This document shows positions 6,481 through 38,325 of a stretch of DNA of 64,000 bases, in pieces. The notes under the pieces are model-generated. The model did not search any database. It worked only from the letters and a program-made list of their open reading frames with translations, and was not told the origin of the DNA. This DNA comes from Yponomeuta sedellus (lineage: Eukaryota; Arthropoda; Insecta; Lepidoptera; Yponomeutidae), in NCBI GenBank assembly GCA_934045075.1, contig OW203745.1, positions 12,796,873-12,860,872 of the forward strand, given 5' to 3'. Position 1 is the stretch's first letter, and the number at the start of each line of letters is the position of its first letter. The position numbers were made by a program, and so were the translations under genes.

Positions 6481-6592
6481 GCTACCTCGACCAGCGCATC
6501 AGCCTCGACATTCAGAGGGGGAATGCTGCCAGCGTCCTGGGAACTCTCCTCAACAGCAGTGCTGTAGACTTTTATTTATATAGAAATTATTT
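6481..6592 (+). pseudogene. Coding relic with DQRISLDIQRGNAASV motif
   Basis: In one frame this gives 'LDQRISLDIQRGNAASVLG', an uninterrupted, GC-richer stretch inside AT-rich DNA. It looks like the C-terminal end of a transposon-borne open reading frame, but I cannot name the family. Both flanks are non-coding, so only a fragment remains. It lies about 100 bases upstream of the tandem array at 6697-7905. Confidence 0.35.
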
Positions 6593-6696
6593 TGTAAATA
6601 TGTAAATACCGTTTACTTAAATAGTAATCGTTGAGTTATTTATATATTATTATAGCCAAATGAATACCCTGAAAGACTAATATATATATGATTTCT

Positions 6697-7905
6697 TTGA
6701 TGCAGATTCACGGAAGGATTTGCCGACATACGGGAAAGGGAGCGAAAAGTCAAGAGAGGCAGTCGAGAACAGGGCAGGCAACTGATGAACAGACACAACA
6801 ACGAGGCTGGACGGCGGGTAAGATTATCTCTTTATCTCACAGCCTGCGTCTCTTTCCCTCTCTCTAGTCAAAAGAGGCAGTCGAGAACAGGGCAAGCAAC
6901 TGATGAACAGACACAACAACGAGGCTGGACGACGGGTAAGCTTGTCTCTTTCTCTCACACTCTGTGTCTCTTTCAGTCTCTCCAGTCAAGAGAGGCAGTC
7001 GAGAACAGGGAAGGCAACGATGAACAGACACAACGAGACTTGACGGCAGGTAAGCTAGTACGTCCCGTTCTCTCGCACTCTTGTGTCTCTTTCCCTTTCT
7101 CTAGTCCAGAGAGGGCATCGGGAACAGAGTCGACCACATGAACAGTCACAGTAACGAGGCGGGAGTCATTACTTTTTAGGTCACTCTGTCTACTCCAGAG
7201 GGATGCGAAAAGTAATGAACAGACACAAAACGAGGGCGGACGGAGGGTAAGCTTTGTGTCTCTTTCTTACACACTCTGTCACTCTTTCCCTCTCTCTCTC
7301 TAGTCAAGAGAAGCCGTCGGGTACAGAGCCGGCAACTGATGAACTGGATCACACAACGAGGCGGGAGTCGATCTCTTTCTTGGTCACTCTGTCTACTGCA
7401 AAGGGATGCGAAAAGTAAAGAGAAGCAGTCGGGAACAGGGCCGACAACTGATGAACAGACACAACAACGAGGCCGGACGGAGGGTAAGCTATTTGTCTCT
7501 CTCTTACACATTGTATGTCTACATTTTCTCTCTCGAGAAGAGACTGCAAAACAGGTTCGACTATTGATGAACAAACATAGGCTGGACGGAGGGTAAGCTG
7601 TAATTGTAATTATTTCTCTTACCTACTCTCTTTCCCTCTCTATCTAGTGAAAGCAATCGAAAACAGATTCGACCACTGATAAACAGACATAACATCGAGG
7701 GGTGGACGGAGGGTAAGCTATATGTCGCTCTCGTACACTCGTGTAGATATATACATGTCTCTCAAAATGAAGAGAGACCCTGAAAAATAGGATCGACGAC
7801 TGATGATCAGACATAACAATGAGGCTAAAGAATACGCTATCTGTATGTCACTTTTCTCGCCTTCTCTATCTAGCGCAAGCTGAAGAGAGGCACAAGGGTA
7901 TCCGA
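6697..7905 (+). repeat. Tandem array of ~115-bp units, each with donor-like and acceptor-like splice signals
   Basis: About eight to nine degenerate units follow one another. The conserved half of each unit reads 'agagaggcagtcgagaacag', then 'actgatgaacagacacaac', then 'aacgaggctggacgg'. The other half starts at a donor-like (G)GTAAGCT and ends in a polypyrimidine tract plus CTAG or CCAG. Donor-like GTs lie near 6818, 6936, 7050, 7247, 7484, 7593 and 7713. Acceptor-like AGs end near 6867, 6985, 7104, 7303, 7647 and 7873. The intron-like parts are mostly 50-57 bases and the exon-like parts about 65-70 bases. Two units (7140-7250 and 7360-7490) are longer because they share an extra block, 'ggtcactctgtctactcc'. 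No long protein frame crosses the units, so this may simply be a satellite whose unit happens to contain these signals. Confidence 0.75.
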
Positions 7906-8394
7906 GTTCAGGGCCACGTGGTTTGTTGTCTGGAAGCTATTACTAGTAGCTGGGACGGCAAACGCTGTTTTTTTTTGCTATTTTAATTAGCCTGCCACCC
8001 ATTCTCAGACAGATGTACATAAAATAAAAAAAATCATAAAAATCGGTGAAGTCGTTTCGGAGAAGTTCGACAACAAACACTGGGATACGAGATTTTTATA
8101 TCTTAGATTATTTTTCTGCGAATATACCTAAATGACATTTCTTTATTTGTATTTAGGATTAGGATCTAGTTTTATAGTAGTTTTTAAGTCGGTGAGTGCT
8201 GAAAAACAGCGCCGTCTATGTCATTGTTGTCTCTGGCGGCACACGCTGAGCACACACCTTTTGTCGCCAACTTTCACAACAACAACAATGACTTCATGTC
8301 ATTATTTGTAATTTCTCCTTTTATTCTTGTTCTTCTACTGTTGGTCGCAATAAATGCATTTTCACTTTAATTTTACTTACTTAAAAAGGATCAG
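7906..8394. other. No gene; repeat fragments
   Basis: Contains 'ggtgaagtcgtttcggagaag' followed by 'acgagatttttatat' at 8045-8105, a block recurring at 25365-25420 and inverted at 3670-3720. At 8190-8212 'gtgctgaaaaacagcgccg' is a diverged reverse complement of the 'cgctgattttcagcac' motif seen at 14189, 46041 and 62123. Confidence 0.35.
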
Positions 8395-8475
8395 TTTTTT
8401 CTGTCAGGCTCGTGGCAAGTGGCAGTTCCTGGTCTCGGCCTACCCCTGTGGGGTACAGGCGTGAGTTTACTGCAA
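8395..8475 (+). repeat. Non-LTR element 3' end
   Basis: 'cgtggcaagtggcagttcct' and 'ggggtacaggcgtgag' match the last codons and 3' end of the reverse transcriptase relic ending at 4720. Only the tail is present, as in a severely 5'-truncated insertion. Confidence 0.55.
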
Positions 8476-8736
8476 ACTCATAAAGTTGCAAACTTATATT
8501 TTGCTGTTGAATTTACGAGGTTCATTACTATTTGTAGAGTATTTATTTTCACAGGATAAGGATAAAATGTCCGCTAATATTGTCCCTTTAGTTGACAGTA
8601 ATCCTTTTACACAGTTAATTTATAGGTGGGGCCACGAACCTAGCGGTTAACTAACACTTGCGACAAACTTATACCGTAGGCATTACCGTACCTATCTCCT
8701 TCAATAAGCGAATCTCCTTGATCTCCTTGGAACGCT

Positions 8737-9303
8737 CGTGGCCTAGTGGCACCGAGTGAAATCAATCACTTGGGTTAAGCAACAACAGGTGCGGTCAGGT
8801 GCTCGATGGGTGACCATCCCATGACTACCTCTAGTGACATTTTTCCGGGTGTTAAGCTGTTGGGGACGGCTGTCATGAAATGGCAGTCGTTAAGCCATGT
8901 AGCAGGCCTTATGAGCATTTTGATACCTTCTGATAGTAAGGCCCGCCACTGTCTTACAATCCTCCACCAACCCGGACTTGGCTCCTGTGGTGATGTATGG
9001 CCTAACCTTCCTGCGATGCAGTAAGAAACCCGGGCCTTTTTTTTTTTAACCCTATAAAGGGCACCCTCCGGAGGACACGGGGGAGGGAGGTTGTGAATGC
9101 TCATGCATAACAGCACGGACCCGGCCGTGTTGCCAATGTGGGACTTACAAGAAGTGCGCCTACCCACTAAACACCACCTTGGGGCTGGTTTTGGTCCTAA
9201 AGACCCCTAAACCCACATCGGGAGCGACCCCCCTCGAGGCCGAGGAGGGCGCACAAAAAAAAACCCGGGCCCCAGCAGCGGAGACATACCAAGAGTTGAT
9301 ATC
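8737..9303 (+). repeat. 5S-rRNA-derived SINE, longest copy, with nested insertion
   Basis: The head at 8737-8830 contains 'gttaagcaacaacaggtgcg' followed by 'gctcgatgggtgaccatccc'. These correspond in order and spacing to the internal promoter half of 5S rRNA ('gttaagcaac...ggatgggtgacc'). The body runs 'ggctgtcatgaaatggcagtc', 'gcccgccactgtcttacaa', 'cctccaccaacccggacttg', and the copy ends 'ccccagcagcggagacatac'. The same body recurs at 12185-12535 (-), 23715-23885, 25078-25258, 37076-37318 and 59596-59695 (-). A promoter derived from 5S rRNA makes this a SINE3-like element. A separate insertion occupies 9037-9260. Confidence 0.8.
9037..9260 (-). mobile_element. 5'-truncated LINE insertion with 11-bp target-site duplication
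   Basis: The insertion begins with a run of T (a poly-A tail on the minus strand) after 9036. AAACCCGGGCC occurs exactly on both sides, at 9026-9036 and 9261-9271. Read on the minus strand, the segment gives a frame containing 'SCKSHIGNTAGSVLLCMSIH', a short LINE-like C-terminal tail, then 3' UTR and poly-A. The target is the SINE at 8737-9303, whose other copies are continuous at this site. Confidence 0.8.
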
Positions 9304-10613
9304 TAATTACCTACCCGTAATATAGACGCTGAATAGAACTACTAGAGACATCATATGAAAAGTAAAAAAAAACTTCTTAAAAACTGGCACACGGTTTCCA
9401 AAAGTATTTTTGTTTATACTACATAAACTCACGCCTGTATTCCCGGGGAAGGGAGCCAGAGATCAGGGCTTGTCACTTAGGTACCACGATCCGATAGACA
9501 ATACATAGGTTTAGTCAATTAAGTCATTGAAACATACTAGTTAGGTATATATATTGAAGTTCCTCCAATTGACCCTAAGGGCCAATTTTTGGACTGAGAA
9601 TTTCGCTAAGTAAATAGTTAACTGCAGTGCTAACTCTTCGAATTTCAAAGAAAATAGCCTGACAAAACGTTACTTAAGTATTAAATTATTTATGTAGGGT
9701 TCAGCATTGCAGCTTTGAAAAATCTCCTGTTAGCTTTACAATTGCTTGTATGCATTTGTTTATTTATAATCCATCCGTTCGTCGACTTTTGACCGGTTAA
9801 AAATTATATTGGAGGTGAAAATTTGACCGCTGCTCCCATGGCCCCAACCGAGAGCCTTCAACTTGCAAGTTCCACTTCCAATACAATACAATAAAGAGCC
9901 ACATATTTTCTGATTACGCCTCGGGCCTTGATAGCCCCTTTGCCAGACAATGTAGACAGTGAAGGCCGAAGGCGGTTGTATTTAATACTTATTTGATGTT
10001 GTCTACTTACGTTGGTCCCTGTATGTTTTATCGGAACATAGGAAAACGCGTTCTTCTAGAAATTTCTAGGAGCAATATTACCAACCTGAGTGAGGAAACC
10101 TGAATGTCTGACTTATCTAAGCCCTTAAAATTGGCAATTCACGGTGAGGACGCGTAGAGCTAAGCCCATATCTCTTTGAGAAAAGGTGCCCTGCAGTGGA
10201 ACGTATAGGCTACGTAATTTTACCAAATCTTAGTAGATATAGGTACCTACATCCAAATATGGGGGGATTCTGGTAGTCAATACGAACAGATTTTATGGCC
10301 TTAGTCCACCTCGAATTTTGAATCGCAGTTTGTGACTGTTTTGAGAAGCGTTGCAAACGTGCAAAAATGATTTATGCATATTATTTATCTACTTTACATA
10401 ACTCCTTTGTATAACATAAAAGACGTACACTTTATTCACGAATTACACCTGACTTGCCAGAGTGTAGCAGCGACAACAAACGTAGTTGATAAAGACAGGT
10501 TTCATGAATAGCAATTTCTCAAATAACCGTGTTTAGAGGAGCCTATAACATATTTAATCGCAGGTTTTAATCAATCAGTATCAAGGTAGATTAGTCCTTA
10601 AATAAAACCCGCA
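9304..10613. other. No gene; repeat debris
   Basis: At 9425-9495 there is an inverted copy of the non-LTR tail ('ctcacgcctgtattcccgg'). The remainder has no coding region or RNA gene that I can recognise. Confidence 0.35.
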
Positions 10614-10659
10614 ATGGGTCCTCTACTCAACTTTATTGCCGTCATCGTCAACATCATCA

Positions 10660-10925
10660 GCATTTCAGCCTATTGCAGTCCACTGCTGGACATAAGCCTC
10701 CCCCAGGGTGCGACACTCTCGATCACCGATCGAGATCTCACCGATCTCCCGTTTTCGCCATCCAGTCACCACCAGCCACCTTTTTCAGGTCGTCGGTCCA
10801 TCTGGCCGGAGGGCGTCCTACACTACGCTTTCCGAGACGTTGTCTCCATTCGGCAACCCGTCTGCTCCAACGATCATCGGTTACTTTATTACCAATCCAA
10901 CTTAAATTCGTCTGTTGAAAACCAT
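10660..10925 (-). pseudogene. RTE-type LINE C-terminal fragment
   Basis: On the minus strand the frame reads 'SWIGNKVTDDRWSRRVAEWR' and then 'GRPPARWTDDLKKVAGGDWM', the standard C-terminal block of RTE-clade reverse transcriptases (W-R-x-R plus G-R-P-x-x-R-W-x-D-D). The downstream 3' tail includes the complement of 'cagtccactgctggacataa'. Endonuclease and catalytic domains are missing, so this is a 5'-truncated dead copy. Confidence 0.7.
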
Positions 10926-11309
10926 GTCCCAAGCTGCCGAAGTTTAGACTTTGGGAGTTTGGGACATGATTTTTGTTTTGGGACATGGTGCTGACCGCCA
11001 AAACGATGATAAAGCTTCGCGGCGTCTTCGCCTCACAAGGGGCGATGGCGACCATCTTCGTGTTCTGTTCCCAGTCGCAGTGGAGCGCGCAAACGTGCTC
11101 GTTTGACTTACCGGTCCTTAGTATAGCGCTATTTCTTTTCAACTCTAAATAGGTTTTTAAAAATTGTCCTTAGCACGGGTTAGTGCATTAGAAAGAGTAT
11201 AATCATATGGGTACAGCGATATCATTCCGATGTAAAAAAAACCTAACTGCAATGTAGGTACTCGGGGCTGGAAGTGATGCAAATCACTTCAGCCAGATGT
11301 TGCTGCCTG
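10926..11309. other. No gene; short repeats
   Basis: At 10950-10990 'tttgggacatg' is repeated. At 11140-11200 there is the 3' tail block of SINE family A ('attgtccttagcacgggttag'). Confidence 0.35.
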
Positions 11310-11475
11310 TACGTAATACAGAGAATATTGTAAAGAGGTTCGAAATTTCACTGATGCCGGTGAGTCGCCCATTAGCTCAGTTGGAAAGAGCGCTGGCACG
11401 AATAGCCAGAGGTCGCGGGTTCGAATCCCGGTACGGGTGGAATTTTTAGTCTCTAAATAGGTTTTTAAAAACGCT
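11310..11475 (+). repeat. tRNA-derived SINE (family A)
   Basis: Contains an A-box-like 'tagctcagttggaaagagcg' and a B-box-like 'ggttcgaatcccggtacg', followed by the family tail 'cctctaaataggtttttaa'. The head is 'ctgatgccggtgagtcgccc'. It is a retrotransposed tRNA derivative, not a tRNA gene: there is no closing acceptor stem. Confidence 0.85.
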
Positions 11476-11869
11476 ATTAAAATTAATATTTTTTTAATTT
11501 CTTACTTTACGTCTTTTAGTTCCACAAAGTAGGTATTTGTAGGCCTTTGTCCAGCACTGGACGAGTATGGACTGGCTGATTGATACATATTTGTGTTCCA
11601 CAGGCGGTGATAAAAAAGTCCCGTGTGACCTGCAAATGTCATGGCGTCTCCGGCTCCTGCAGCCTCATCACGTGCTGGCAGCAACTGGCCTCCTTCCGGG
11701 AGATTGGTGGGTCCATTACATAAACTCAAGCCTGTGTCCCGGAAGGGTAGGCAGGAGAGAGAGAGTGCAAAGTATCATATTTCTGTCTGCAATGCAATGT
11801 CTGTCTCGATCCGTATCTGACACGGGGTTTCTAAAATGTGTAATTCCAGAAACACCCCAATCAAGTACG
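11476..11869. other. No gene; truncated LINE tail
   Basis: 'gtaggcctttgtccagcactgg' near 11535 and 'cctgtgtcccggaagggtaggc' near 11735 are inverted LINE-tail fragments. No coding region is recognised. Confidence 0.35.
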
Positions 11870-12030
11870 TAATACCTACAGAGAATATTGTAGAGGTTTG
11901 AAATTTCACTGATGCCGGTGAGTCGCCCATTAGCTCAGTTGGAAAGAGCGCTGGCACGGATAGCCAGAGGTCGCGGGTTCGAATCTCGGCATGGGTGGAA
12001 TTTTTAGCCTCTAAATAGGTTTTTAACACC
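11870..12030 (+). repeat. tRNA-derived SINE (family A)
   Basis: Near-identical in layout to the copy at 11310-11475: 'gatgccggtgagtcgcccat', A-box 'tagctcagttggaaagagcg', B-box 'gggttcgaatctcggcatg', tail 'cctctaaataggttttt'. The two copies lie only 400 bases apart in the same orientation. Confidence 0.85.
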
Positions 12031-12039
12031 CCAATTAAA

Positions 12040-12140
12040 GTTCTTGTTATACTTTATTGCACTTAAACAAATGCATGATAGGGCGGACTAAATGCCTTAA
12101 GCATTTTCTACCAGTGGAAGAAAAAGTTGGTAGGAGTGCA
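12040..12140 (-). repeat. LINE 3' tail
   Basis: 'ttatactttattgcacttaaac' followed by 'gggcggactaaatgccttaagc' is the typical antisense 3' UTR end of a lepidopteran LINE. Similar tails occur at 2950-3060 and 49430-49500. Confidence 0.5.
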
Positions 12141-12184
12141 AAAAAAGAACACGAGAAAAAGTAAAAATGCAATCTGTAATGTCG

Positions 12185-12535
12185 ATATCAACGCTTGTAT
12201 GTCTCCACTGCTGGGGCACGGGTCTCTTCCTGCATCGCTCCAGCGAGATTAGGCCATAATTCCACTGCGGGGGCCAAGTCCGGGTTGGTGGAGGATTGTA
12301 GACAGTGTGGTCTTACTGTCAGAAGTTACCAAGCTACCCATAAGGCCTCAGACATGGCTTATGGCTGCCATTATATGACAGCCGGTACTGCCATTACACG
12401 GAAGCGCTTGGAAAAATGTCACTAAAGTAGTCCCGGGACGGTCACCCATCCTGCATCCGACCGCGCCTGTTATTGCTTAACTCAAGGGATTGATTCCAAT
12501 CACTCGGTTCGAACAGGCCACGAGCGCTTCTAATC
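12185..12535 (-). repeat. 5S-rRNA-derived SINE, antisense copy
   Basis: The reverse complement starts 'gcgctcgtggcctgttcgaa'. It then has 'gagttaagcaataacaggcg' and 'aggatgggtgaccgtcccgg', which is the 5S rRNA internal promoter region. The body and the 'ccccagcagtggagacatac' end match the copy at 8737-9303. It is nearly full length and without the LINE insertion. Confidence 0.8.
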
Positions 12536-12776
12536 TATAATATTGACCTTATAGATTAGGTACTTAAATTCTTGATGCAAAAGGCACCTAACTTTCTTCC
12601 TGGAACTCTGGGTGGTCCCAGAGTGACTAATGAAACCTTAAATATAACAGTAAAATGCAACAATAAAATATACAAAATTATATCGATTTTATTAACCCGT
12701 CGACCATTTTGAAATCGTAAACTTTTGTGCTCCAAATCAAAAGATAAGTTATGTGACAGAAGGTTCTCCCTGCTAA
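12536..12776. other. Short AT-rich spacer
   Basis: Nothing recognised apart from a short palindrome around 'aatctataatattgaccttatagatt' near 12531-12557. Confidence 0.3.
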
Positions 12777-13115
12777 AGCCAGGTTTTCACGATCTTAGTG
12801 CGCTCGGTCCGAGTGCGCCATCCGAGTAAACTAATGCTTCTGATTGGCTATTTTGATGTTATTATACTATTTTTATTTTTAATGCACTAACCCTTGCTAG
12901 GGACTGATGCCGGTGAGTCGCCCATTGGCTCAATTGGTAGAGCGCTGGCACGGATAGCCAGAGGTTGCGGGTTCGAATCCCGGCATGGGTGAAATTTTTA
13001 GCCTCTAAATAGATATTTTGATGTTGTCACGAAAAACCGTCCAATCACAAGCATTCGTTTACTCGGATGGCTCACTCGGTCCGAGCATACTAAGACCGTG
13101 AAAATGCGACTTCAG
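12777..13115. mobile_element. Palindromic MITE split by a SINE
   Basis: The left arm has 'ttttcacgatcttagtgcgc', then 'tccgagtaaactaatgcttc' and 'tgattggctattttgatgtt'. The reverse complement of the right arm has 'ttttcacggtcttagtatgc', 'tccgagtaaacgaatgcttg' and 'tgattgg'. The inverted arms are about 85 bases each. A SINE sits between them at 12861-13013. No coding capacity is present. The outer ends and their target duplication are uncertain. Confidence 0.75.
12861..13013 (+). repeat. tRNA-derived SINE (family A) nested in MITE, 12-bp target duplication
   Basis: TATTTTGATGTT occurs on both sides, at 12849-12860 and 13014-13025. Between them lies a family A SINE with A-box 'tggctcaattggtagagcgc', B-box 'gggttcgaatcccggcatg' and tail 'cctctaaatag'. 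The intact duplication shows that the SINE inserted after the MITE. Confidence 0.9.
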
Positions 13116-13283
13116 TTTGGAGAAAAAATCTTTGGTAGAGTATCTTCTTCTTTGGTAGAATTCTATTCTTCTTCTTTTCTTTGGTCGTAGCCTCATTCAT
13201 TACTGAGGAACGTGACTCAGCAATTTGGTTATTAAAAAAAAAACTTTAATTTTTGGTAGATAATAAGTAGAAGTGCGTAATAC
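13116..13283. other. Short spacer
   Basis: Contains repeated 'cttctttggtag' phrases around 13145-13185. No gene. Confidence 0.3.
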
Positions 13284-13435
13284 CAGAGCGGTGGTAGCGC
13301 AGAAGTAGAACGCCAGATTCTATTCGGGAGGACGTGGGTTCGAATCTCGGCATGTGCCTCTTTGTTTTCTAAGTTAGTGAAGTTAGTAGCCGTGCCACTC
13401 ACTAAAGTGTAGGAGAACATCGTGAGGAATCTTAA
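13284..13435 (+). repeat. tRNA-derived SINE (family B)
   Basis: Begins 'gagcggtggtagcgcag' and continues 'gaacgccagattctattcgg', B-box 'gtgggttcgaatctcggcatg', then 'tttgttttctaagtta'. Other copies are at 29113-29385, 44452-44712 (-), 60253-60530 (-) and 63113-63368. This copy is truncated at its 3' side. Confidence 0.75.
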
Positions 13436-14216
13436 GTTTTTGAGTGTTTATTCCAAACCGCGGCGGGCACACGTAGTAAACAAGCCCATATTGAAGCTCT
13501 TTCTCTGTGAGAGAAGGCCGTGTCCCAGCAGTGCACAGGCAAAAAAAAATTACAACCATGATTTCTGTAATCTATGTGTATACAATTGGTGGCCTTATCA
13601 CTTCGTGCGAACTCTTCCAGACAACCTTGTGTTGTCGGTTCTTCGGTTTGTTCCGCAGTTGTAGCAGTTTAAACGCGCCGTAAACTCCATTATTATAATT
13701 CAAGATGGCGTCTTAATCAAGTTTTTATGGACTTTAAATTTCCCATGATTTTGGAAGTAGCCCTTCAACTTTTACGTCTGAGAAAAGCTATAAATTCTAA
13801 CACTGTCTTCTTTTACAAGCTTACCTACAATTCTTTTTTTATTATTCTTTATAACAGGTTTACACGTCACCTTTCTGTCTCATTCTCCAGACCGTATAGT
13901 CAAATACACAATTAATTTTTCAATACAAGCAATATAAAGTAAAGTAAGTAAAAAGATATTTATTGCCACCAACAAAACACTGGTTGAAAGAAGAAAGTAC
14001 AAACTACATTTGGTTAACATACACATTTTACCAACTAGTCTCAGCCAGGTAACAATAATTTATAAGGTTCATTGGCACTTTTTATAATTTATATAAAAAC
14101 AGTGACCCATAATATACGCAGTTGGCAGCAAAGGGCACAGTGCTCAGCGCGGGCCGTCAGGCGTCGTGGATTTCACGCCCTCCAACGGCGCTGATTTTCA
14201 GCACTTACCTAACTAA
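13436..14216. repeat. LINE-tail-rich region, no gene
   Basis: At 13490-13540 there is a tail 'agaaggccgtgtcccagcag'. At 13925-14216 there is an antisense LINE 3' region, beginning 'agatatttattgccaccaac' and ending 'ggcgctgattttcagcactta'. The last motif recurs at 46041 and 62123 and marks a shared 3' UTR end. No host coding sequence is seen. Confidence 0.4.
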
Positions 14217-14501
14217 CGGCCAAATACTCAAACGTCATTCATATATTTAAAGGCATCTTAAGTAATTGACAAGCCGTTAAACACAAAATTCGTATACACA
14301 AACGTTAGTTAAAAGCTTGTGTTAAATTTAAGTGGAACACAAAATAACTGGCAGTTAAACATCACTCAGCGAAAAATTCGTATACTCGAACGCCACTTAG
14401 CGCGATTTATCTGTCAAATGGGCTGTCAAATCGAGTTGAGTAGGCGTTACAATTGAAAGTGGTCGCGAGGACCTTCAAATCGTAAAAAAGTTGTAATATC
14501 A

Positions 14502-14702
14502 GTGAACTTATGTGAAAAACAATGTCCTTATCATGTCGAGGAAGGGCCTAATGTGCCTCGAAGAAATGAGGCAAAGTTAAATGCTTTCGAGTATTGTAAT
14601 GAAACAGACTTCCATGCGCGGTTCCGGCTGTCGAAAGAGACGGTATTATATTTGCAGTCGGTCCGTCTTTTGACATACAATCCAACCAGTTACAAGGAGT
14701 AA
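14502..14702 (+). pseudogene. HARBI1-like transposase N-terminal fragment
   Basis: The 66-codon frame contains 'FEYCNETDFHARFRLSKETV'. It resembles the start of PIF/Harbinger nuclease-type transposases, where a D-F-x-x-R-F-R-L-S-K-E-x-V segment precedes the DDE core. The frame ends at 14702 and the catalytic part is missing. It lies in the left third of the transposon at 14217-18715, in the opposite orientation to the main transposase, which suggests a second, older element. Confidence 0.5.
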
Positions 14703-15546
14703 TAGATCCAAACAGCTAGTGGACCAAATTTTAATAACCCTGCGTTATTAATATTTATTATGCTACTGGCATAATAACGCATAATAATAATTCTCATTCA
14801 ATTCTTGTTTATATTAGTATTTATCAGGGAATAGCTTTAAAAAACCGCAATACCGCAATGTTTTTACTGTGGTAGACTTTTCAAATGTCATTGGTGAGAT
14901 GGCCCTAACGTTTCGTTCTACGACAATATAAGATATTATTATTACAACATTAAACATTTTGCTTTGTACAAAACGAGGTAATAATAATTTAAGTTTGTTT
15001 CATAAATCATATTATGATTTATTTTATTTTATTTTTATAAAAATACTTCATATTTCATCACGAAACTTAAAATTGATCGAACAAATTCTGCGTAAATCGG
15101 ATACACAACGTAAGTTTAAATATTTTGTCAATGAAAACAGACTTGTTGTTTATTTGACGGCTTCTCAGCTGATCACGGTCTGAAATTGTTTGAATGACGT
15201 TTGTGTATACCACTCAATATTTAACAGATGTTCAAAGGATGATGGGCACAAATGTATGGAACCTGGTCCTGGCACCAATCGGAATGAGTAATACGTCGTT
15301 GGAAAGGTATTTTTTTGTAGAATAAGAATAATCGAAGCGCTCGTCCCGATTTTCTGTCCAATTTGAGTAATCATACGTTAAAAGTTTTTTTTTATTTAAT
15401 TTTTTTTCTGTTGTTTTAATTCTTTTTGATATTTTTTCGACATTGTATATCGATTTTAATTACAAATGATCAGCATTGATTATTATATTATCATTGTTTG
15501 TTTATTATCGAAGTAAATAAAACAAGTTCAGAGTAAGTTTTATCGT

Positions 15547-18117
15547 TTAATGTGTTTCATCCATGATAATGTTATTTAAAAATAGTGCTGGTTCAGTAAA
15601 GCCTTCATGTCTAGCATATCCTAAATACCACACAATAGATATAATATGCGCACAGGAACCTATCGTGCGGCGTCCTGTCAAACATGTGCAATAATGTTGT
15701 AATATGTTTCTACTATTTCTGTCTAATAATATATAGCAAAAATATTGTTTTGATCGTACATGTCGGGACTGTATGCGTGCACGCAACAGCCACGCATCTT
15801 CGTGGATCCCATATTCATGGATATCCTCCAAAGCAGCTTCTCTATAAGTTTCTATAAGATATAAGCCGTTGTTGAGGTGCTCGCTGCAATATGATTTTGC
15901 CAGTTTTAACTGATATGTCCCCAATGACAGCAAAATCACGTCCTGTTCCCTCAATCGTGGAAAGTCTTGAATGTCATTTGCTTCCAATCTCTGGAAATTG
16001 GCTCTTCTGTTGTTTAATCTTTTTGCTTCTACATAATCATATAACACGTTTGGGGTTTGCCTTCTTTCAACAATTTTTTGTAAAAAAGCTTCTGCGTGTT
16101 GGCTATCGACAATAGGCCTGTGGAAGTGATTTGTAATTGCTGCTGCAATCATAAAATCCCCGAACATATTAGGCATTGTGTTATTAAAATATTTTAGGCG
16201 CAACAGCTTGAAATCTCTTTTGAAACGCCCGTTAACCACTTCCACTACCCATCGGCACATTGTCACCAGCCGGGAATCATTTGCTTGAGAAGTCGTGAGC
16301 TGCGACTCTTCCCGGTTCTTCGTCGGGGGGACGTGAAATTCGTAGCCACATGCTTCTATATGCTGCAGACTATCCCTGAACCCGCGGTCCAAAATAAATA
16401 CGTCATTCGGCTGAAGCAATATATGAAGGGGATTTTCCTCGTCAGTCATTAAGTCGCTCATTATCTGCGCATCAGTTTTTGTTGCAGCGTATGGTCCTTT
16501 AACATCTATAATGTATCCGTCAGTGGTTACGATTAAAAATGGTTTCAACAAGTTTTGGAACTTGTGTAAACTGTAGGATTGCCTCTGAAACAAAAAGTTT
16601 GAACTCTTGTATACCTATATAAATATACGTACCATCGCAAATAATAATGGCTTTATTGTTGTCTTCATTTCCATACAGTGCTTTTGGAATCCTCAAGTTT
16701 CTCTCCAATATATCTTCTCTATTCATGTGATCCACTCCCAAGTGTCGCACAACGTAGTCAGTGCTAAGACACTCTCGTGCGATGGCCAACTGGCGTTCGA
16801 GTTTTCTCCGAGACATGTTAAACAACGTCGCAAGTCTCGCGTTGGGTTCTCCTGTGCGTAGTTTCGTTAGTAAAATGCCCAAAGTGGTTCTGGGATCTGC
16901 ACTTCTATTTCTTAATAATGGATTTTGCTCTAAGATGGCATTAAATTCATCATTAGTACGTCCAGTCCAAAAGTGCATTTCTTCTTCATTCATGCCTCGG
17001 TCGCTAAAACGTAATCTGGGTGAGTTTAAGGCATTTCGCATTAGGTCACAAACATCCCTGAAGTGGGCAGCCGTAAAGTCATGGGAAATGTTGCAATGTT
17101 GGGGCAAATCATCCCAATCATTCCCATTAAGGTGATCGTGACATACTCTGGCACTGTCGGGGATATACAATTTATGTTGAGAAAATACGTGGATTTTAAC
17201 AACATTTGGAATTCGATGGCGGGTTTCATTAGCGCAGCCATGAAAGATACAATGCGTCGCGGTATTAGGTGCTCTCATATATTCAGGAATATGAAGCATT
17301 TCTTCTAATTGCGGTTGTAGTTGTTCTTGCGGTTGTAGTTGTTCTTGCGGTTCTGCTTGTTCTTGCGGCTCCGGCTCGGGTTGAGGGTTTGCATGACCTC
17401 TAGTCGCATTTTCGGCTCTTTGCCAGCATCGGTAACATACTCTTCGGGTGTTGTCAAACACGACCTGAAAATGATATATGAAAATGTAAGGAAAAGAAAA
17501 ACAACTTTGGTTTCCGAAAAATACCTAACAAAATAACGCATTGGGGGTCATTTGTGGGAGGGATTTGTTTTTCTGTCAGAAGGTGTGCGAATCGTCAAAT
17601 ATATGCCACAGATTCACAGATTTCTCAGAGATCTGGTTGCGGTTTTCTGTAGTTGTGTGTACGAAAACAAGGCACACAACCACACAAAACCGCAACCACA
17701 GTAATTGGTTGTGGTTTTGTGTAGGCCTTGTTTTGGTGGTAAATACATCGTGGAAGACGTAAAAGTGAAAAAGGAATCACTTGAATGTTCTTTAAGCGAC
17801 CAGAATCACTTATCAATCGGTTTTCACTTTTATGTCTTCGTTACCTCATTTACTACTAGAATAGATCTGGGATGCAGTTGCACATGATTTCAATTGGTTT
17901 CCTTTTATATCGAAGGTTCAGTGAGGATCGAGTGGAAAAAAAAAGTGCAATAGGTACAAACCTCCAGAGCAGCGTTTTCTCGTATAAATGTTACTAGCTC
18001 CACGTGTGTTCTTGTCAAGGCTTCCGACAGAACGCGTACTTGATATCTGCCTCGGTATAGCCCTCTTCGGCACATTACACAGTTACGGTAACGTTCCATT
18101 GCAACGAAACAATCCAA
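15547..18117 (-). pseudogene. DDE transposase with zinc-binding N-terminus and SWIM finger, broken by a frameshift
   Basis: Exon 1 (18117-17962, 52 codons) carries CVMC. A 497-bp intron (donor GTTTGT, acceptor TTTTCAG) leads in phase 0 to exon 2 at 17464, which begins 'VVFDNTRRVCYRCWQRAENA'; CVMC plus CYRC would form a zinc site. Next come a repetitive P/E/Q linker, a second possible zinc motif (CIFHGC...CHDH), and a helix-turn-helix region around 'LATLFNMSRRKLERQLAIAR'. The DDE core follows: first Asp in 'IICDGTYIYI', second Asp in 'FILDRGF', Glu in 'RWVVEVVNGRFK'. The C-terminus has a SWIM-like finger 'HYCTCLTGRRTIGSCAH'. Near 16610 the frame shifts, so the first Asp is in one frame and the rest in another. 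The missing stretch (KSSN..FQRQSYS) is present in the second frame, so a small insertion is more likely than a tiny intron. The stop is at 15547. This is DDE_4-type transposase architecture and probably an inactive copy. Confidence 0.8.
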
Positions 18118-18718
18118 TCGTTAAGCACCCAAGTCCAATATAAAGCCATGGTCAACAAATAAAACGGGTAACAGAGTCCAAAATGATGCCAAGGTCAAAG
18201 TCGATGTGAACAATGAGGAGCGTAATAACGTAGCACTTAACACAATATCAGCAAACGACTGACTACCTGCGCAAGCGGCCAAGCGTTCCTCACCCTAACA
18301 TACCTGCCCCCGCGCCGTGTCCCGTAGCGCGAGAGGGGTCAAAACCGAATTCCAGCGTTACCCGTGACCGTGAGTGGGAGAGAGAGCGCAATGTCGCTGT
18401 CTCGCTCTAATGATTTATGACAGAGTATGCATAGATGTGATTTTCGTAAAAATCATGAGCATCGGTTGAGTTAAACCAGAGATATGAATTTTTCTAATTT
18501 CTATTTAGAGCAAAAAATGGTACTTTCCGACGAGCATATTTCAAAATGGACAATTCATACGGATTCGTCTTCATAGAATTTATTTTTTCACTTGAAAAGA
18601 GCTATCCAACGACATATGACTCATCTTGATTGGACATAAGGACCAAAACGCCCATCATCCTTTGAATGCCCTTCAACTGAGTGATCGATTTGACTGACGT
18701 TTGAGTATTCGGCCGTAA

Positions 18719-20050
18719 AGCTAAAATACTTAAAACTAAACCTAAATAATACAAGGGTAGATGGTATAAAACATCATCCATGCGCGGGTTGATAGAAAAT
18801 TATTGATACAAACCAAGACAAATCAGCACAGAAGGGTCACTGATGTTTTTAAACATAAATAAAAATAGTAACTTTAATTTCATAACCCTAATGTACAGTT
18901 TAATGCTTAGCGTGTATGAGTGTGTGTGTTGTGTGTGAGGGTGTGTGTGCGCGTGTGTGGGTGGGTGTATGTGTTATATTTATTTTGTATATCTGATAGC
19001 ATATTTTTTGTATATATATTGTGCTTGTGGATTTATTAGTTCACATTTGATTTTTTTGATTTTGGTTTCGGTAGTTTTTTCGATGTTTTTATAATGTAGG
19101 TGTTTTTATTATGAGCAACTTGTTTCTCCATAAGAATATTTTTTAATTTTTCTTTAAATGTTCTATAAACTAATATAAGCACGAGAGTAGCTGTAATTTG
19201 TCTCTTTTTAGTAGTCTATAAAGCAATAGCAGTACAGTAAGAAGTCATTACAATAGTAATTAATAGGCGAGGCAAAATTGAATCGCAAAACACGCCCAGT
19301 TGACTCGCACGGGTACCATGTGAATAAGATTCGCAGTCTACCAATAGTGTAAATAAACAACTATTACCGTAATAACTATGCTGGGTGTATTTCCATGTAG
19401 GTATGTGGTGTCTTTAGCTGAATGATTAACACCAACGAAAAATTTGAGTTGATATTCAGAAACCTGTTAAAAATTGTTACATTGCAATTTAACCAGTTCA
19501 ATTCCCTCCTAGGATTTTGCCAACATCAGATTGTGAAGACGGCTTTCCTTATTCCGCAAGAGCCAATGCATAGGTAGTCGAGAAACTTACAACAAAATAT
19601 TGTAAAGAAATATTATAAAACTATTTTATCACGAGTTTGCAAAGTTCTAATCTAACTTTGATTGAACAACCAACCAACAAAACATCAAAAATTCCCGCCA
19701 TCTTTCCGGGTGGGCCTTTATTTTTTTTTATCTCCGCCCATCGCTGCGGGCAAGGGAACGCCCATTCAGCCACACTCGAAACAATTTATGATCCTAAAAT
19801 GCTAATCACAACCCTTTGTAACAACTGGTAACGTGCAATTAATTGTTATTTATTTGTATTAAATGGCTCTATTAATACGTTGTTTCTAACCAGTAATTAT
19901 TGTAGCTTCATAATATCTTTTAACATACCTATTATTATTTCTGTGGAGACAGACACATCGTTATTAAAGCGTTCCTCTACGACTTTCAACAAACATGTGA
20001 ATATTGATCACAAATTAGATATTTTATTTATTTATACTATAGATTAGTAT
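18719..20050. other. No gene; GT-rich microsatellite
   Basis: At 18908-18980 there is an imperfect (GT)n tract interrupted by GA, GG and GC steps. The rest is AT-rich with no coding region or repeat family that I can name. Confidence 0.45.
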
Positions 20051-20240
20051 GTCTGTAAGCTTTTAGAATATACCTCGGGCTCTAAAGGCTTCGGTTTTCT
20101 CCAATTTTCGCCGGTTTTCGTACTGATGATCGAGTTATGATTTCGAAATTAAATGTCATATTAGTTCCGATATTTCTATTACACGACTATATCCGATTCT
20201 ATCCGATAGTAGTCGAGGTATGTTCTAAAAGCTAACAGAC
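20051..20240. mobile_element. MITE with 'TTAGCTTTTAGAATATACCT' ends, copy 1
   Basis: Left end 'gtctgtaagcttttagaata' and right end 'tctaaaagctaacagac' are inverted repeats, followed inward by 'tacctcgggct' and 'gtagtcgaggta'. Interior landmarks are 'ttagttccgatatttctatt' and 'tccgattctatccgatag'. The same element is present in the opposite orientation at 21420-21630. No coding capacity. Confidence 0.8.
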
Positions 20241-20379
20241 TATATATCAGGTATGTGTGTATAGGTACTCCGTTTGTTTTAATTTAGCATTTCTTCCGTA
20301 CCTATAACTTTGGTACCTAAGTAGATATGAAAAACCTTCGGTAAGATCAAAATTTTTCTGTTGAATATAGAAAAGAGAA

Positions 20380-20645
20380 GAGAGAAATAGAATAGAATAG
20401 AAAAACATTTATTCAATAATATGAAATATGCAGAGCTGAAGTTTGGCCGTCAGCTTTGCATGTTCCTTTCTTCTCTTGGTCAAGTGAAATAGATCTAAAT
20501 CGCTGGCCACTCCAGTCGACTCTCTGATGTTCCAGAGCCATGATTTCCTTCTTCTACCAGCGCGCCTCGTCTCCCATAATTTTGCCCATCATGATAATTG
20601 AAGAAGTCTGCACCGGTCGCTTCAAAAGCGCATGTTCCAAGTAAA
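20380..20645 (-). repeat. LINE 3'-end fragment
   Basis: 'aatagaaaaacatttattcaat' near 20395 is an antisense poly-A-signal-like start. It is followed by about 230 bases of moderately GC-rich DNA without a long frame, consistent with a 5'-truncated retroelement in the last part of a Wnt5 intron. Confidence 0.35.
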
Positions 20646-20707
20646 TTTCTTTAATTAACCGTTATAATATTTCTAAATGATTCGCGATACTCATACACAT
20701 TTTTTTA

Positions 20708-20862
20708 ACGGGTTTAATCGCGATTATTTATTATTAGGTTAAACGTAATCACCTACCTTATTTCCCGACCGTGACCACGGCAACTGTAACGCTGCTGAAA
20801 TGTCGGGAAATAAGGTAATTACCTACGTTTTACCTAATAAATAATCGCGATTAGACCCGTTT
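20708..20862. mobile_element. Near-perfect palindromic MITE next to a Wnt5 splice acceptor
   Basis: Left arm 'acgggtttaatcgcgattat', through 'accttatttcccgacc', pairs with right arm 'gtcgggaaataaggt' through 'ataatcgcgattagacccgt'. Arms are about 60 bases with a short centre containing 'gaccacggcaactgtaacg'. The right arm ends about 40 bases before the start of the Wnt5 exon at 20902, in the usual branch-point zone. Confidence 0.75.
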
Positions 20863-20901
20863 AATAAATTAACCGTTCTGTTACAATATATTTTCCTCCA
20901 G

Positions 20902-21059
20902 GCGACTACCTCCGCGACAAATACGAGGGCGCGACAGAGGTGCGCGTCTCGCGTCGCGGGAAACTGCGCGTGAGCAGCGCACTGTACAGCATCCCCACTG
21001 CGCAAGATCTACTGTACCTGGAGGAGTCGCCCAACTACTGCGTGCGGAATGACACCTTG
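20902..21059 (+). CDS. Wnt5: Wnt5 penultimate coding exon
   Basis: 158 bases: two bases completing a Gly codon, then 52 codons ending ...NYCVRNDTL. It is markedly GC-rich compared with its surroundings. The acceptor is 'ttttcctccag' and the donor is 'ttg|gtgagg' (phase 0). It is flanked by inverted copies of the same MITE (20051-20240 and 21420-21630). Confidence 0.9.
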
Positions 21060-21862
21060 GTGAGGGATAAAGAGATAGATGTAAGCTGCACGGGGGCAAT
21101 CGACTGTACAGAGACCTCAACAGGACATCTGAAACTACTGAATTAAATCATCATGAGAGAAGGGGAGGGCAGAAAAAGTGAAATAAGCTGGAGAAACCCA
21201 GAATTACTGCATGGAGAATGATACTCTGATAAGAGAGAGGCAAGCTGCAACAACTTCTTTAAAAACACTTACGAAATACCTTCTTATGAAGCGGGTTCCC
21301 GATTAAGGATCAATGGTACCTATTTTATAAGAATAAGCAAACCATGGTACCTAAATTGTTTTTATGTATACTATAATAGTGTTTGACCCAGAGTTCAAAA
21401 AATTGTACCTACTTAAATTCTGTTAGCTTTTAGAATATACCTCGGCTACTATCGGATAGAATCGGATATATTCGTGTAATAGAAATATCGGAACTAATAT
21501 GACACTTAATCTGACATAACGTTTCAAAATAGTGAAGGAAAGAGGAAGTAGTAGTTATTACACTCGTGTGCTTTCGGCGAACACCGAAGCCTACTCCAGA
21601 GCCCGAGGTACATTCTAAAAGCAAACAGACTGTATTTATGTAGGTATAAATTCTTCACCCGCAGGGCTCCCTCGGCACGGCGGGACGCGAGTGCAAACGC
21701 ACGTCTGCCGGCACGGACGGCTGCGCGCTTCTGTGCTGCGGCCGCGGATACAACACCAGAAAGCGCAGTGTGCAGACCCGCTGCGAGTGCAAGTTCCACT
21801 GGTGCTGCCGCGTGGAGTGCAACACTTGCGTGCATAGTGAGGAATTACATACGTGTAAATAA
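20902..21862 (+). CDS. Wnt5: Wnt5, last two coding exons (partial gene)
   Basis: Wnt5 is a secreted, cysteine-rich, lipid-modified signalling protein. In Drosophila it acts mainly through Ryk/Derailed receptors in axon guidance. Exons 20902-21059 and 21665-21862 join in phase 0 to give the final ~118 residues. The stretch beginning '[20 protein letters not shown]' and the block '[17 protein letters not shown]' fit Wnt5 better than other Wnts: Drosophila Wnt5 has a closely similar R-G-x-L...PT-x-DL-x-Y-L-x-ESP arrangement. The last exon has the Wnt C-terminal cysteine pattern ([14 protein letters not shown], then CECKFHWCC, then ECNTC and HTCK-stop). Acceptors are TTTTCCTCCAG and CACCCGCAG; the donor is TTG|GTGAGG. 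Earlier exons, including the palmitoylated serine region, lie left of the window. Confidence 0.9.
21420..21630. mobile_element. MITE with 'TTAGCTTTTAGAATATACCT' ends, copy 2 (inverted)
   Basis: Left end 'ctgttagcttttagaatata' and right end 'tctaaaagcaaacagac' are inverted repeats. The element matches 20051-20240 in reverse orientation, sharing 'ctactatcggatagaatcgg' and 'agaaatatcggaactaatat'. An extra ~40 bases lie in its right half. It ends about 34 bases before the last Wnt5 exon. Confidence 0.8.
21665..21862 (+). CDS. Wnt5: Wnt5 terminal coding exon
   Basis: 66 codons including the TAA stop, starting [10 protein letters not shown] and ending ELHTCK. The acceptor is 'cacccgcag'. The last 82 bases of this exon, from the codons RCECKFHW to the stop, are the founder unit of the tandem array that follows immediately. 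Confidence 0.92.
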
Positions 21863-23690
21863 GATGTCAATTACTTCTACGCAGCCGAATATACAATCGT
21901 TTCTACGGTTAGAAGACAAACTCGGCTTCGGCTACAACTGCAAGAGTAATGTACAACTGGCTGCGAGTGCAAGTTCCACTGGTGCTGCCACGTGGAACGC
22001 AACACTTGCGTGCATAGTGAAGAATTACATACCGTAAATAGGATGTCGATTACTTCTACGCAGCCGAATATACAATCGTTTCTACAGTTAGAAGACAACT
22101 CGGCTTCGGCTACATCTGCAAGAGTAATGTACAACTCGCTGCGAGTGCAAGTTCCACTGGTGCTACCGCGGGGAGTGCAACACTTGCGTGCATAGTGAAG
22201 AATTACTCACGTGTAAATAGGATGTCGATTACTTCTACACAGACGAATATATATTCGTTTCTTTGGTTAGAAGACTAACTCAGCTTCGGCTACATCTGCA
22301 AGAGTAATGTACAACTCGCTGCGAGTGCAAGTTCCACTGGTGCTGTCACGTGGAACGCAACACTTGCGTGCATAGTGAAAAATTACATACTGTAAATAGG
22401 ATGTCGATTACTCCTACATAGCCGAAGATACTATCGTTTCTACGGTTAGAAGACAAACTCTGCTTCGGCTACATCTGCAAGAGTAATTTACAACTCGCTG
22501 CGAATGCAAGTTCTATTAGAGTTGTTGCGTGGACGTATACAATGCTTGCGTGCATACTGAGACATACTTGCATACGTACAAATCCACCGATTCACCGCAA
22601 GGAGTACAATACATGCGTGCATTCTGAGAAAATACATACGTGCAAGTAGACAAACCCAAACATAGAACCGCATCTACGATTAAAAGATAAACGTGCTGTG
22701 TGTAGAACTCGCTGCGAGTGCAAGTTACACTAACGCTATTGTGTGGACTCCAATGCTTCCGTGCATACTGAGGAAATACATAGGTGCAAATAGACACATC
22801 GTTGTTGTCGATTACCTTTTAGAAAACAAACTCTGACACCTCAAGAGTAGTGTACAACTCGCTGCGAGTGCAAGTTACACCGATGCTGTCGCAAGGACTG
22901 CAATACTTGCGTGCATACTGAGGAAGTACATACAGGCAAGTAGACAGAACCAAGCATAGAACCGCATCTTCGTTTAAAAGATAAACCGTGCTGTACCTAG
23001 GCCTGAAAGCGCTGTACTTGCACAACTCGCTGCGAGTGCAAGTTCCACTGGTGCTGCCGCGTGGACTGCAATACTTGCGTGCATACTAAGGAAATACATA
23101 CGTGCAAATAGACAAACTTGGCTACATGACCACAAGAGTAGTGTACAACTCGCTGCGAGCGCAACTTACACTGATACTGTCGCAAGGACTGCAATACTTG
23201 CGCCCATACTGAGGAAGTACATGCGTGCAAGTAGACAGAACCGTATCTACGATTAAAAGATAAACCGTGATGTAGCTAGGTCTAAAAGCGCAGTGTACAA
23301 CTCGCTGCGAGTGCAAGTGCCACTGGTGCTGCCGCGTGGACTGCAATACTTGCGTGCATAGTAAGGAATGACATACATGTAAATAGACGGATCGTTTCTG
23401 TCGACTACTTTCACGCAGCGAAAGATACAATAGTTTCTACGGTTACAAGACGAACTCGGCTACGTCTACAACACCGCAAGGGTAGTGTACAACTCGCTGC
23501 GAGTGCAAATCCCACTGACGCTGCCTCTAGGAGAGCACTACTTGCGTAGGAAACTACTGAGAAAAACACATGCGCAAGTAGACAAGAACATAAGACTGCT
23601 TCTATAGAACAGAACAGAGTCGCTGCGAGTGCAAATTTTGCTACTGCTGAATACGTGCGTTACTGAGAAAATGCACACGTGCAAATAGTC
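21781..23690 (+). repeat. Tandem array of about 12 units derived from the Wnt5 C-terminal coding segment
   Basis: Each unit starts 'ctgcgagtgcaagttccact', the Wnt5 codons for CECKFH. It continues through 'gcaacacttgcgtgcatag' to a stop-like 'tgtaaatag' or 'tgcaaatag', then about 100 bases of 3' flank ('cggcttcggctac...aagagtaatgtacaactcg'). Units begin at 21781 (inside the genuine exon), 21961, 22139, 22319, 22498, 22712, 22862, 23030, 23153, 23304, 23497 and 23623. The first four periods are 178-180 bases; later ones vary from 123 to 214. Copies 2-4 are close to the founder and the distal copies are more decayed. The coding-derived part appears better conserved than the spacer. No unit has the upstream exon or an acceptor, so these are not extra exons in an obvious sense. 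Confidence 0.92.
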
Positions 23691-23714
23691 AGATTGCTTC
23701 TGTCTATAATATCT

Positions 23715-23885
23715 ACCTACATCTTATGGGCGGCTTGATAACTTCTGACAGTAAGGCCCGCCACTGTCTTACAAACCTCCACCAACCCGGACTTGCCCCC
23801 CGTGGTGGAGTATGGCCTAACCTTCCTGCGATGCAGGCAGAGACCCGTGCCCCAGCAGTGGGGACATACAGGGTTGCAATCGATT
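23715..23885 (+). repeat. 5S-rRNA-derived SINE, 5'-truncated copy
   Basis: Contains the shared body 'gataacttctgacagtaagg', 'cctccaccaacccggacttg', 'gatgcaggcagagacccgtg' and the end 'ccccagcagtggggacatac'. The 5S-like head is absent, so this copy lacks the promoter. It abuts the end of the Wnt5-derived array. Confidence 0.75.
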
Positions 23886-25077
23886 ATCAAACATCCACAG
23901 AACCGAAGATACGACCGCCTTAATGTTTAGTAAATAAACTCCACTACGATTATAACACTCTCACAAGTGTACATTGGAACATTCCCTACTGTTGATTTCT
24001 TAATCGATCATATTTATAGAAATGGTCGCTTACATCTGGCGAATTTTTCTATACGTGTAAGAACACAGATGAAGGGAAAGGTGTTTTAAATTAATCTGGG
24101 TGTAAGAAAGATTAGTTGTCAATCTAGACTTTCTCCCTTATAAATTATGATAATTAAGAGGCTACCGTACTTAAATAAGCGATTTTAATTTATTATACTT
24201 TTTTAAATAGCCAGTAAGTAACTTGATAAGAACTGTTTAACACTATGCCCGTTTTCACCACCGGGGAATTCCCTATTTATTTAATAAGTAAGGAAATTTT
24301 AACCACTTTTTACTCCCCTCTCCCGATGTAAAAAAAATCTTATTCCATCCCCTTATATAAAAAACTAAGTCTTACGTACTAAAAGTACCTCTTTCTTTAC
24401 CTCCTATATCGTTTATATAATAACAGCTCCTAATCTAAATTAACTCTTGTGCTGTCCGGTCTAAGAGCGAAACTTCTTGGACTACGAAAATAAAAGTGAA
24501 ATTTACAACAATATAACGTAGTTTTATTTAAGTCATGCTAGATTATTATTACAAAAACTAAACGATACGCTGTTTAGTTACACAGTGAAATAAATATTGG
24601 TTTTACAGACATTGTACAGTCTATTTATTCTTACTTGTCCAATTTAGTAAACAAGATTCTACCCGTAAACTGTAACTTTTTAGTCCAAAACTGCCATATT
24701 TTCATAAATGACGTAACTTGGAACACTCTTTTAGATAACACGCTGCCAATTTTATAAACATAGTTCATGATAGTTCATGAATTTGCGAGAAAATGTCTAG
24801 TTTAGGCATCTAATCTCAATTTTAAGGTTAGAGTCTTGTTTACTAAATTGGACAAGAATAAATAGACTGTAAGTTGTTTTATTGCACTCATGGTATCTTC
24901 TTAAGGATATTGGGAAAAGATAATCAAAGTGGGAGCTTTTCGCTGAATTTTTCTCAACTACCACTTGACTCGAAGGCATTTGCTAACCTTGTAAGGCCCA
25001 CTTACGTCAGCCAGGGTTAGCTCATTTAACTCGAGTTGACCGTTTAATTCGAAATTATCGATTTTACCGGTTTTGTG
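23886..25077. other. No gene recognised
   Basis: AT-rich DNA downstream of Wnt5 and its array. A segment around 24600-24660 ('acagtctatttattcttact' to 'cccgtaaactgtaacttttt') has an inverted counterpart around 24815-24870. No coding region is recognised. Confidence 0.35.
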
Positions 25078-37505: not shown

Positions 37506-37634
37506 AGTCACAAAGAGGAATAAATAAAATAATCAGTTAAACAATCTCAGCTTTTTTATTGCTCATAAATTTGTAACATAATTGACACATATTCTATAAA
37601 TCCGCTGTGTTGAAGTTGTCTTTTTATCTTCCTC

Positions 37635-38325
37635 GAGGAGGATCCTCTCCACTGTGGTGAAGTTGAAGTTTTGTGTTCAACGAGCAGGTTCCTCTCCACT
37701 GCGATGAGGTTGAAGTTTTATGTTTACCGAGCAGGTTCCTCTCCACTGCGGTGAAGTTGAAGTTTTATGTTCAACAAGCAGGTTCCTCTCCACTGCGGTG
37801 AAGTTGAAGTTTTATGTTTACCGAGCAGGTTCCTCTCCACTGCGGTGAAGTTGAAGTTTTATGTTCAACAAGCAGGTTCCTCTCCACTGCGATGAGGTTA
37901 AAGTTTTATGTTTACCGAGCAGGTTCCTCTCCACTGCGGTGAGGTTGAAGTTTTATGTTCAACAAGCAGGTTCCTCTTCCCTGCAGTGAAGTTGAAGTTT
38001 TATGTTCAACTAGCAGGTTCCTCTTCACTGCAGTGAAGTTGAAGTTTTATGTTCAATGAGCAGGTTCCTCTCTACTGCAACGAAGTTGAAGTTTTATGTT
38101 CAACAAGCAGGTTCCTCTCCGCTGCGGTGAAGTTGAAGTTTTATGTCCAACGAGCAGGTTCCTCTGCACTGCGGTGAAGTTGAAGTTTTATGTTCCATGA
38201 GCAGGTTCCTCTCCACTGCGATGAAGTTGAGTTTTTGTCTTCTACGAGGAGGACCCTCTCCACTGCAGTGAAGTTGACTTTTTATGTTCCACAAGGAGGA
38301 TTCTTTCCACTATGGTGAAGTTCCT
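37635..38325. repeat. 47-bp minisatellite, about 14.5 units
   Basis: Units of 47 bases begin 'ggttcctctccactgcggtg', continue 'aagttgaagttttatgttc' and end 'aacaagca'. Starts fall at 37640, 37687, 37734 and so on, in steps of 47 up to about 38298. Two alternating unit variants ('gtttaccgagca' and 'gttcaacaagca') are visible among units 2-8, so part of the array expanded as a 94-bp dimer. Because 47 is not divisible by 3, no repeated protein can be read through it. Confidence 0.92.

Follow-up and report, generated by a model that had tools for sequence, protein, structure and literature searches.

Minisatellites and satellite DNA grow by unequal exchange. The tandem arrays described here, in the Wnt5 gene of the moth Yponomeuta sedellus, resemble them in consisting of head-to-tail units, in having a dimer-like higher-order structure and in carrying older units at the edge. 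In contrast to minisatellites, a Wnt5 array has at one end a protein-coding exon that is under selection and cannot decay, which gives the array a permanent source and a direction. The analysis covered a 64,000-nucleotide stretch of contig OW203745.1 (assembly GCA_934045075.1), here called the window.

It is accepted that new introns can arise when a tandem duplication spans an exon border (PMC4974935, PMC2891723, PMC3443670); the second of these papers concerns near intron pairs in Drosophila. The Wnt5 arrays share two features of this process: an exon border is crossed or copied, and an intact functional copy is left. The array behind the first of the Wnt5 exons found here (array A) also joins intron end to exon sequence, making new AG/GT pairs as intron-gain duplications do. 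In the intron-gain cases, however, the reading frame gains an intron, whereas the Wnt5 copies multiply and, judged from the DNA, stay outside the coding path; within a single gene they lie behind two exons and probably a third. No earlier exon-tail array of this kind was found in a limited search, with partly narrow terms, of open-licence PMC titles and abstracts, and no relatives of the arrays were found in public viral contigs.

Tail copies behind the exons of Wnt5

Four Wnt5 exons with conventional splice sites were located in the window, giving a spliced reading of 189 residues (Table 1). The joined reading matched the Pfam wnt family (PF00110) at E = 3.5e-71, its best PDB match was Wnt-5a, and its best protein matches were lepidopteran Wnt-5b, with 77–84% identity over 189 aligned residues to 12 named proteins. 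The gene had been called Wnt5 from its sequence, and these comparisons bear the name out. Two of eight query proteins gave no tblastn match to the N-terminal half in the window, among the matches listed. The GC content of the exons is 0.54–0.62, compared with 0.38 for the window, and might promote duplication there. The long Wnt5 intron holds a DDE transposase-like frame on the minus strand (15550–16614). A search of Rfam over 6000–25000 gave three tRNA-type matches only, none of them in the arrays; they lie in the Wnt5 introns around the second exon (11367–11439, 11926–11995 and 12921–12989) and look like tRNA-derived SINEs.

Table 1. Features of the Wnt5 locus (positions in the window)
Feature	Coordinates	Strand	Remarks
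Wnt5 exon e1, reading FTEGFADIRERERKVKRGSREQGRQLMNRHNNEAGRR	6706..6817	+	acceptor ...GATGCAG, donor GTAAGA; founder of array A
Wnt5 exon e2, reading ends ...REIG	11604..11706	+	tail copy not found
Wnt5 exon e3, reading ends ...NYCVRNDTL	20902..21059	+	
Wnt5 last exon e4, stop TAA	21665..21862	+	tail is unit 1 of array B
Array A: 3' end of e1, splice donor and about 50 bp of intron	6748..7878	+	TRF, blastn, alignment
Probable decayed single copy of e3 3' end with flank	21193..21243	+	tblastn, DNA alignment
Array B, units 1–4	21780..22496	+	period 178–180; divergence from founder 0.042–0.113
Array B, units 5–12, irregular, more decayed	22497..23731	+	
Junction core TGTACAACTCGCTGCGAGTGCAAG, example from unit 3	22126..22149	+	1-bp deletion and 13-nt inverted repeat ACTCGC-T-GCGAGT
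First AATAAA after the stop codon, beyond array B	23933..23938	+	next at 24489

The array at the end of the gene (array B) consists of twelve direct head-to-tail units, u1 to u12. Unit 1 is exon sequence, the genuine tail of the last exon, and the other eleven lie behind the stop codon, as the original prediction of about twelve units had it. The units are anchored at 21780, 21960, 22138, 22318, 22497, 22711, 22861, 23029, 23152, 23304, 23496 and 23622, and the spacings are 180, 178, 180 and 179, confirming the regular first four periods of 178–180 noted originally, then 214, 150, 168, 123, 152, 192 and 126. TRF reported 4.1 copies of 179 bp at 21779–22513 (score 1200), and local alignment of the last exon plus 60 bp with the next 1.5 kb scored 238, against a maximum of 33 over 300 shuffles. 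Units 1–4 are a duplicated dimer (u1u2 and u3u4 are 91% identical), and the u7/u9 and u5b/u7 pairs are spaced 291–294 bp apart. Unit 5 is made up of two partial units, with the half unit u5b running from 22596 onward. Among the copies, the 26-codon tail, with all seven cysteines, is intact in unit 8 only. The founder has the stop codon TAA, and all 11 copies have TAG. The units had been described as C-terminal codons plus flank. They are indeed direct repeats of this kind, but the junction at 23457–23488 also matches codons further upstream in the founder (21739–21771), a match equalled by none of 500 shuffles, which makes coding sequence a larger part of the unit than described, at least there. 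The other ten junctions were singly unconvincing in the same comparison, with 17 to 372 of 500 shuffles as good. The DNA directly behind the array (23730–23870) may resemble a repeat of moth genomes.

Array A comprises the founder and nine copies, at 6866, 6984, 7103, 7211, 7302, 7414, 7535, 7646 and 7766, and a doubtful further copy at 7879. TRF gave a period of 118 bp, 3.2 copies and a score of 510, and alignment of the exon with the DNA downstream scored 176 (shuffle maximum 28). Both arrays contain dimer-like duplications, here a4a5/a6a7, and in both the units adjoining the exon are the nearest to the exon sequence. Copy a7 (7394–7483) is nearly intact; a 1-bp insertion brings an ATG into frame with the copied exon sequence, and the donor reads GTAAGC, so that on its face a7 could resemble an alternative first exon. 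Exon e3 is probably followed by one decayed copy of its tail, the weakest link among the tail copies: tblastn gave E = 1.4e-4 with flank and 0.016 for the exon alone, and the DNA alignment was borderline, its score being reached by 8 of 1000 shuffles and by 3 of 110 other pieces of the window. The phenomenon is thus wider than the original prediction, which missed both array A and the probable e3 copy. Downstream of e2, no tail copies rose above background.

Tail copies therefore follow two exons with certainty, and a third probably, of the four found, and every copy detected stands 3' of its source exon. No copies were found within 1.5 kb upstream of any of the four exons, where scores of 16–25 were at the level of shuffled downstream pieces. 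The probability that two randomly placed arrays would each overlap the 3' border of one of the four exons is 0.0071 × 0.0084, or about 6e-5, and 3.2e-4 for overlap with any part of an exon; these values are post hoc, assume uniform placement and apply to a window chosen for one of TRF's three arrays. The three TRF arrays with a period of at least 40 bp have periods of 47, 118 and 179 bp; the first lies at 37611–38322 (15.1 copies, score 990). Elsewhere in the window are a reverse transcriptase frame on the minus strand (46728–48704) and an open frame of 133 codons without a Pfam match (54224–54622), perhaps an exon of another gene.

Divergence and constraint among the copies

In array B, the divergence of the flank from the founder grows with distance (rho 0.63, p = 0.04), and with the more decayed state of units 5–12 this upholds the stronger distal decay seen originally. 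The coding part showed a trend that was not significant (rho 0.56, p = 0.07), with units 8 and 10, whose coding part is as near to the founder as that of units 2–4, as exceptions. In array A, it was the exon part that diverged with distance (rho 0.83, p = 0.005), the intron part not significantly so (rho 0.43, p = 0.24).

In the distal units the coding part had been thought better conserved than the flank. This is true of comparisons with the functional exon: founder pairs of array A differ at 14 of 206 exon positions versus 32 of 143 intron positions (p = 3.9e-5), and differences between the founder and u2–u11 in array B fall 32, 32 and 65 times on codon positions 1, 2 and 3, the cells not being independent. 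When the copies are compared with one another, however, the constraint on the gene itself drops out. In array B, the pooled pairs u2–u4, u7–u9, u6–u8 and u5b–u7 differed at 33 of 302 coding and 31 of 259 flank positions (p = 0.79), and the differences fell on the three codon positions 13, 8 and 12 times (p = 0.53), without a third-position excess. In array A, four pooled pairs that share members (a2–a7, a7–a9, a8–a9, a9–a10) differed at 55 of 262 exon and 35 of 165 intron positions (p = 1.0). Other pairs gave p values of 0.12 to 0.83 in array B (u3–u4, u8–u10, u3–u10, u7–u5), and in array A 0.41 for a2–a3 and 0.37 for the a4a5/a6a7 dimers. The flank was the more diverged part in five of eight copy–copy pairs of array B, in none significantly. 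Since the coding part is better conserved only against the functional exon, its apparent conservation is mainly a signature of the living exon. The check on both parts of the unit and on codon position showed no significant difference between copies; the third-position excess is seen against the exon. In these comparisons the tail copies look unconstrained, but the junction core and copy a7 are better kept than expected. Of the readings originally offered, the one favoured is a neutral minisatellite originating in the exon.

The codon counts differ from pair to pair. Replacement and silent codons numbered 7 and 0 between u7 and u9, 10 and 0 between u6 and u8, 3 and 2 between u8 and u10, and 2 and 6 between a2 and a7. 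Copy a7 differs from the exon by five silent codons and one replacement, where 1.3 and 5.1 are expected at random (P = 0.00075). Silent change on the founder side explains which way this excess runs, but perhaps not all of it. The silent excess in a7 and in the a2–a7 pair is greater than is due from a freely drifting copy, and counts against neutral decay.

Origin of the arrays and alternative explanations

All ten scorable units of array B (u2–u11) share a frameshifting 1-bp deletion immediately before the CECKFHWCC codons, reading TGTACA-ACTCGC where the exon, which lacks the deletion, has TGTGCAGACCCGC. In the exon such a deletion would throw Wnt5 out of frame. At this site, therefore, the array has not gone through the exon, and exchange into the exon across it would be harmful.

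Array B is probably a nearly neutral exon-tail minisatellite without a function of its own, grown by unequal exchange outward from the live exon, with the reverse exchange selected away. A tandem duplication would have begun inside the last Wnt5 exon and ended beyond the stop codon, so that the real exon stayed whole and a spare copy of its tail came to lie behind it, probably in the 3' UTR. Unequal exchange, which we infer to be the engine, would then have multiplied the spare copy. A recombinant carrying a copy of the live tail into the array would survive, and one bringing the frameshifted junction into the exon would be lost. Since selection preserves only the first unit, exchange would act as a one-way valve, which would keep the units by the exon fresh and leave the distal units as decaying relics of older exon states. 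The polarity across the gene could arise in the same manner: a duplication that starts in an exon and ends downstream would keep an authentic first copy with its own donor or stop, while one across the 5' end of an exon, over a whole exon or inside an exon would alter splicing or coding. The weak age gradients in the coding part of array B and the intron part of array A count against this explanation, and so do the closeness of units 8 and 10 to the founder and the Ser at tail residue 19 of the distal units 5 and 10.

The tail residues carry a possible trace of such a history. Residue 19 of the tail is Ser in this Wnt5, in distinction from lepidopteran Wnt-5b; Thr stands there in 11 of the 12 named Lepidoptera and in 15 of 18 aligned relatives. 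The founder and units 2–4 share Ser19 and Leu22, whereas units 6–9 and 12 have Thr19; units 5 and 10 have Ser despite their distal position. Ser19 and Leu22 appear to be derived states of the exon, and several distal units seem to keep older-looking ones. The pattern is most simply explained if the bodies of the proximal units were taken over from the exon by unequal exchange after the Thr-to-Ser change, while the array junction was retained. A further difference from the relatives lies ahead of the CECKFHWCC motif (21773–21778), where Thr replaces the Glu found in 18 of 18 aligned relatives; the array copies read Thr there too, and the change, being common to exon and copies, may predate the array.

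With the first AATAAA beyond it, array B lies probably within the 3' UTR, in keeping with the original placement in or near it, and it would be transcribed with the gene. Two roles proposed for it at the RNA level gained no support. Repeated poly-A signals were rejected as a candidate, with no AATAAA between the stop codon and 23932 and ATTAAA only at 22679 and 23252, in units 5 and 9. Nor were inverted or antisense-forming copies seen that might make the array a source of antisense or small RNA: the four pairs of inverted repeats in 20500–24800 join no array units, a search of the minus strand with the anchor pattern found nothing, and copies of this kind were rejected.

A broader reading, which we put forward tentatively, is that exon-tail satellites are a recurrent product of genomes, each a valve-fed archive of past exon alleles with the palindromic junction as a hotspot of exchange. 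Tandem duplications beginning within an exon and ending downstream would be the exon-overlapping class tolerated by both splicing and translation, and for that reason would accumulate at the 3' ends of exons.

The junction bears on this reading and on a narrower one, that the junction core is a repeated protein- or RNA-binding site in the Wnt5 3' UTR or a recombination hotspot driving the expansion. The core, 24 columns wide, is the most conserved window among units 2–11 (0 of 10,000 permutations; 0.0013 for the distal units alone), and its 13-nt inverted repeat is exact in 7 of 11 copies. As the core carries a frameshift absent from the exon, constraint on Wnt5 cannot explain its upstream half. 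The ten junction columns upstream of the search anchor exceed the rest of the unit in conservation (p = 5e-5), the units having been collected by a pattern in the 14 adjoining bases, inside the core; ascertainment by this pattern may account for part of the conservation. The pattern misses units that lack the core, and one such half unit, u5b, exists. Furthermore, the palindrome is imperfect in the founder exon and in 4 of 11 copies, and no Rfam family was matched. A conserved junction is not predicted by plain neutral decay, and an exchange hotspot or a binding site is possible, but as the main explanation of the array we consider the core unlikely.

That the units serve as gene-conversion donors rewriting the C-terminal finger of Wnt5, as was suggested originally, is quite improbable. 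Donor and recipient do adjoin in the same orientation, and the Ser19 and Leu22 shared by the founder and units 2–4 can be read in either direction; the founder's Ser19 is explained equally simply if the exon changed first and the new state spread outward by copying. The frameshift at 10 of 10 scorable junctions, together with an intact tail in unit 8 alone of the 11 copies, speaks against donors, although exchange confined to the tail is conceivable.

Slightly less probable again is a role of the array A copies as alternative or poison exons tuning Wnt5 output. Of the 15 GGTAAG donors in the window, 6 lie in the copies, and in several copies the copied exon is preceded by a pyrimidine-rich stretch and an AG. 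Two of seven candidate exons, 6843–6935 (93 nt) and 7199–7246 (48 nt), have lengths divisible by three and stay open in frame, but the other five (68, 73, 64, 55 and 65 nt) would shift it, and the copies differ equally in their exon and intron parts. Selection on the donors was rejected, conservation of the donor 8-mer not being significantly above that elsewhere (p = 0.062; p = 0.18 for a 12-mer); a 16-column window with p = 0.032 lies over the exon body, not the donor.

An assembly artefact is barely credible: short-read assemblies can misplace tandem repeats, but the 12 units are mutually different, the window contains no N, and each of the two arrays follows its own source exon in sense orientation.

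Implications of exon-side arrays

The arrays are real and their mechanism is mostly ordinary; it is the polarity across the gene that is unusual. For annotators of Wnt5, Wnt-like tail peptides beyond the stop codon would on this account be relics. Should the polarity and the valve prove general beyond Wnt5, exon-side arrays could date and polarise coding changes within a single genome, without an outgroup, since distal copies would reveal what an exon formerly coded; the same generality would explain why minisatellites that overlap exons would be expected behind them and not in front.
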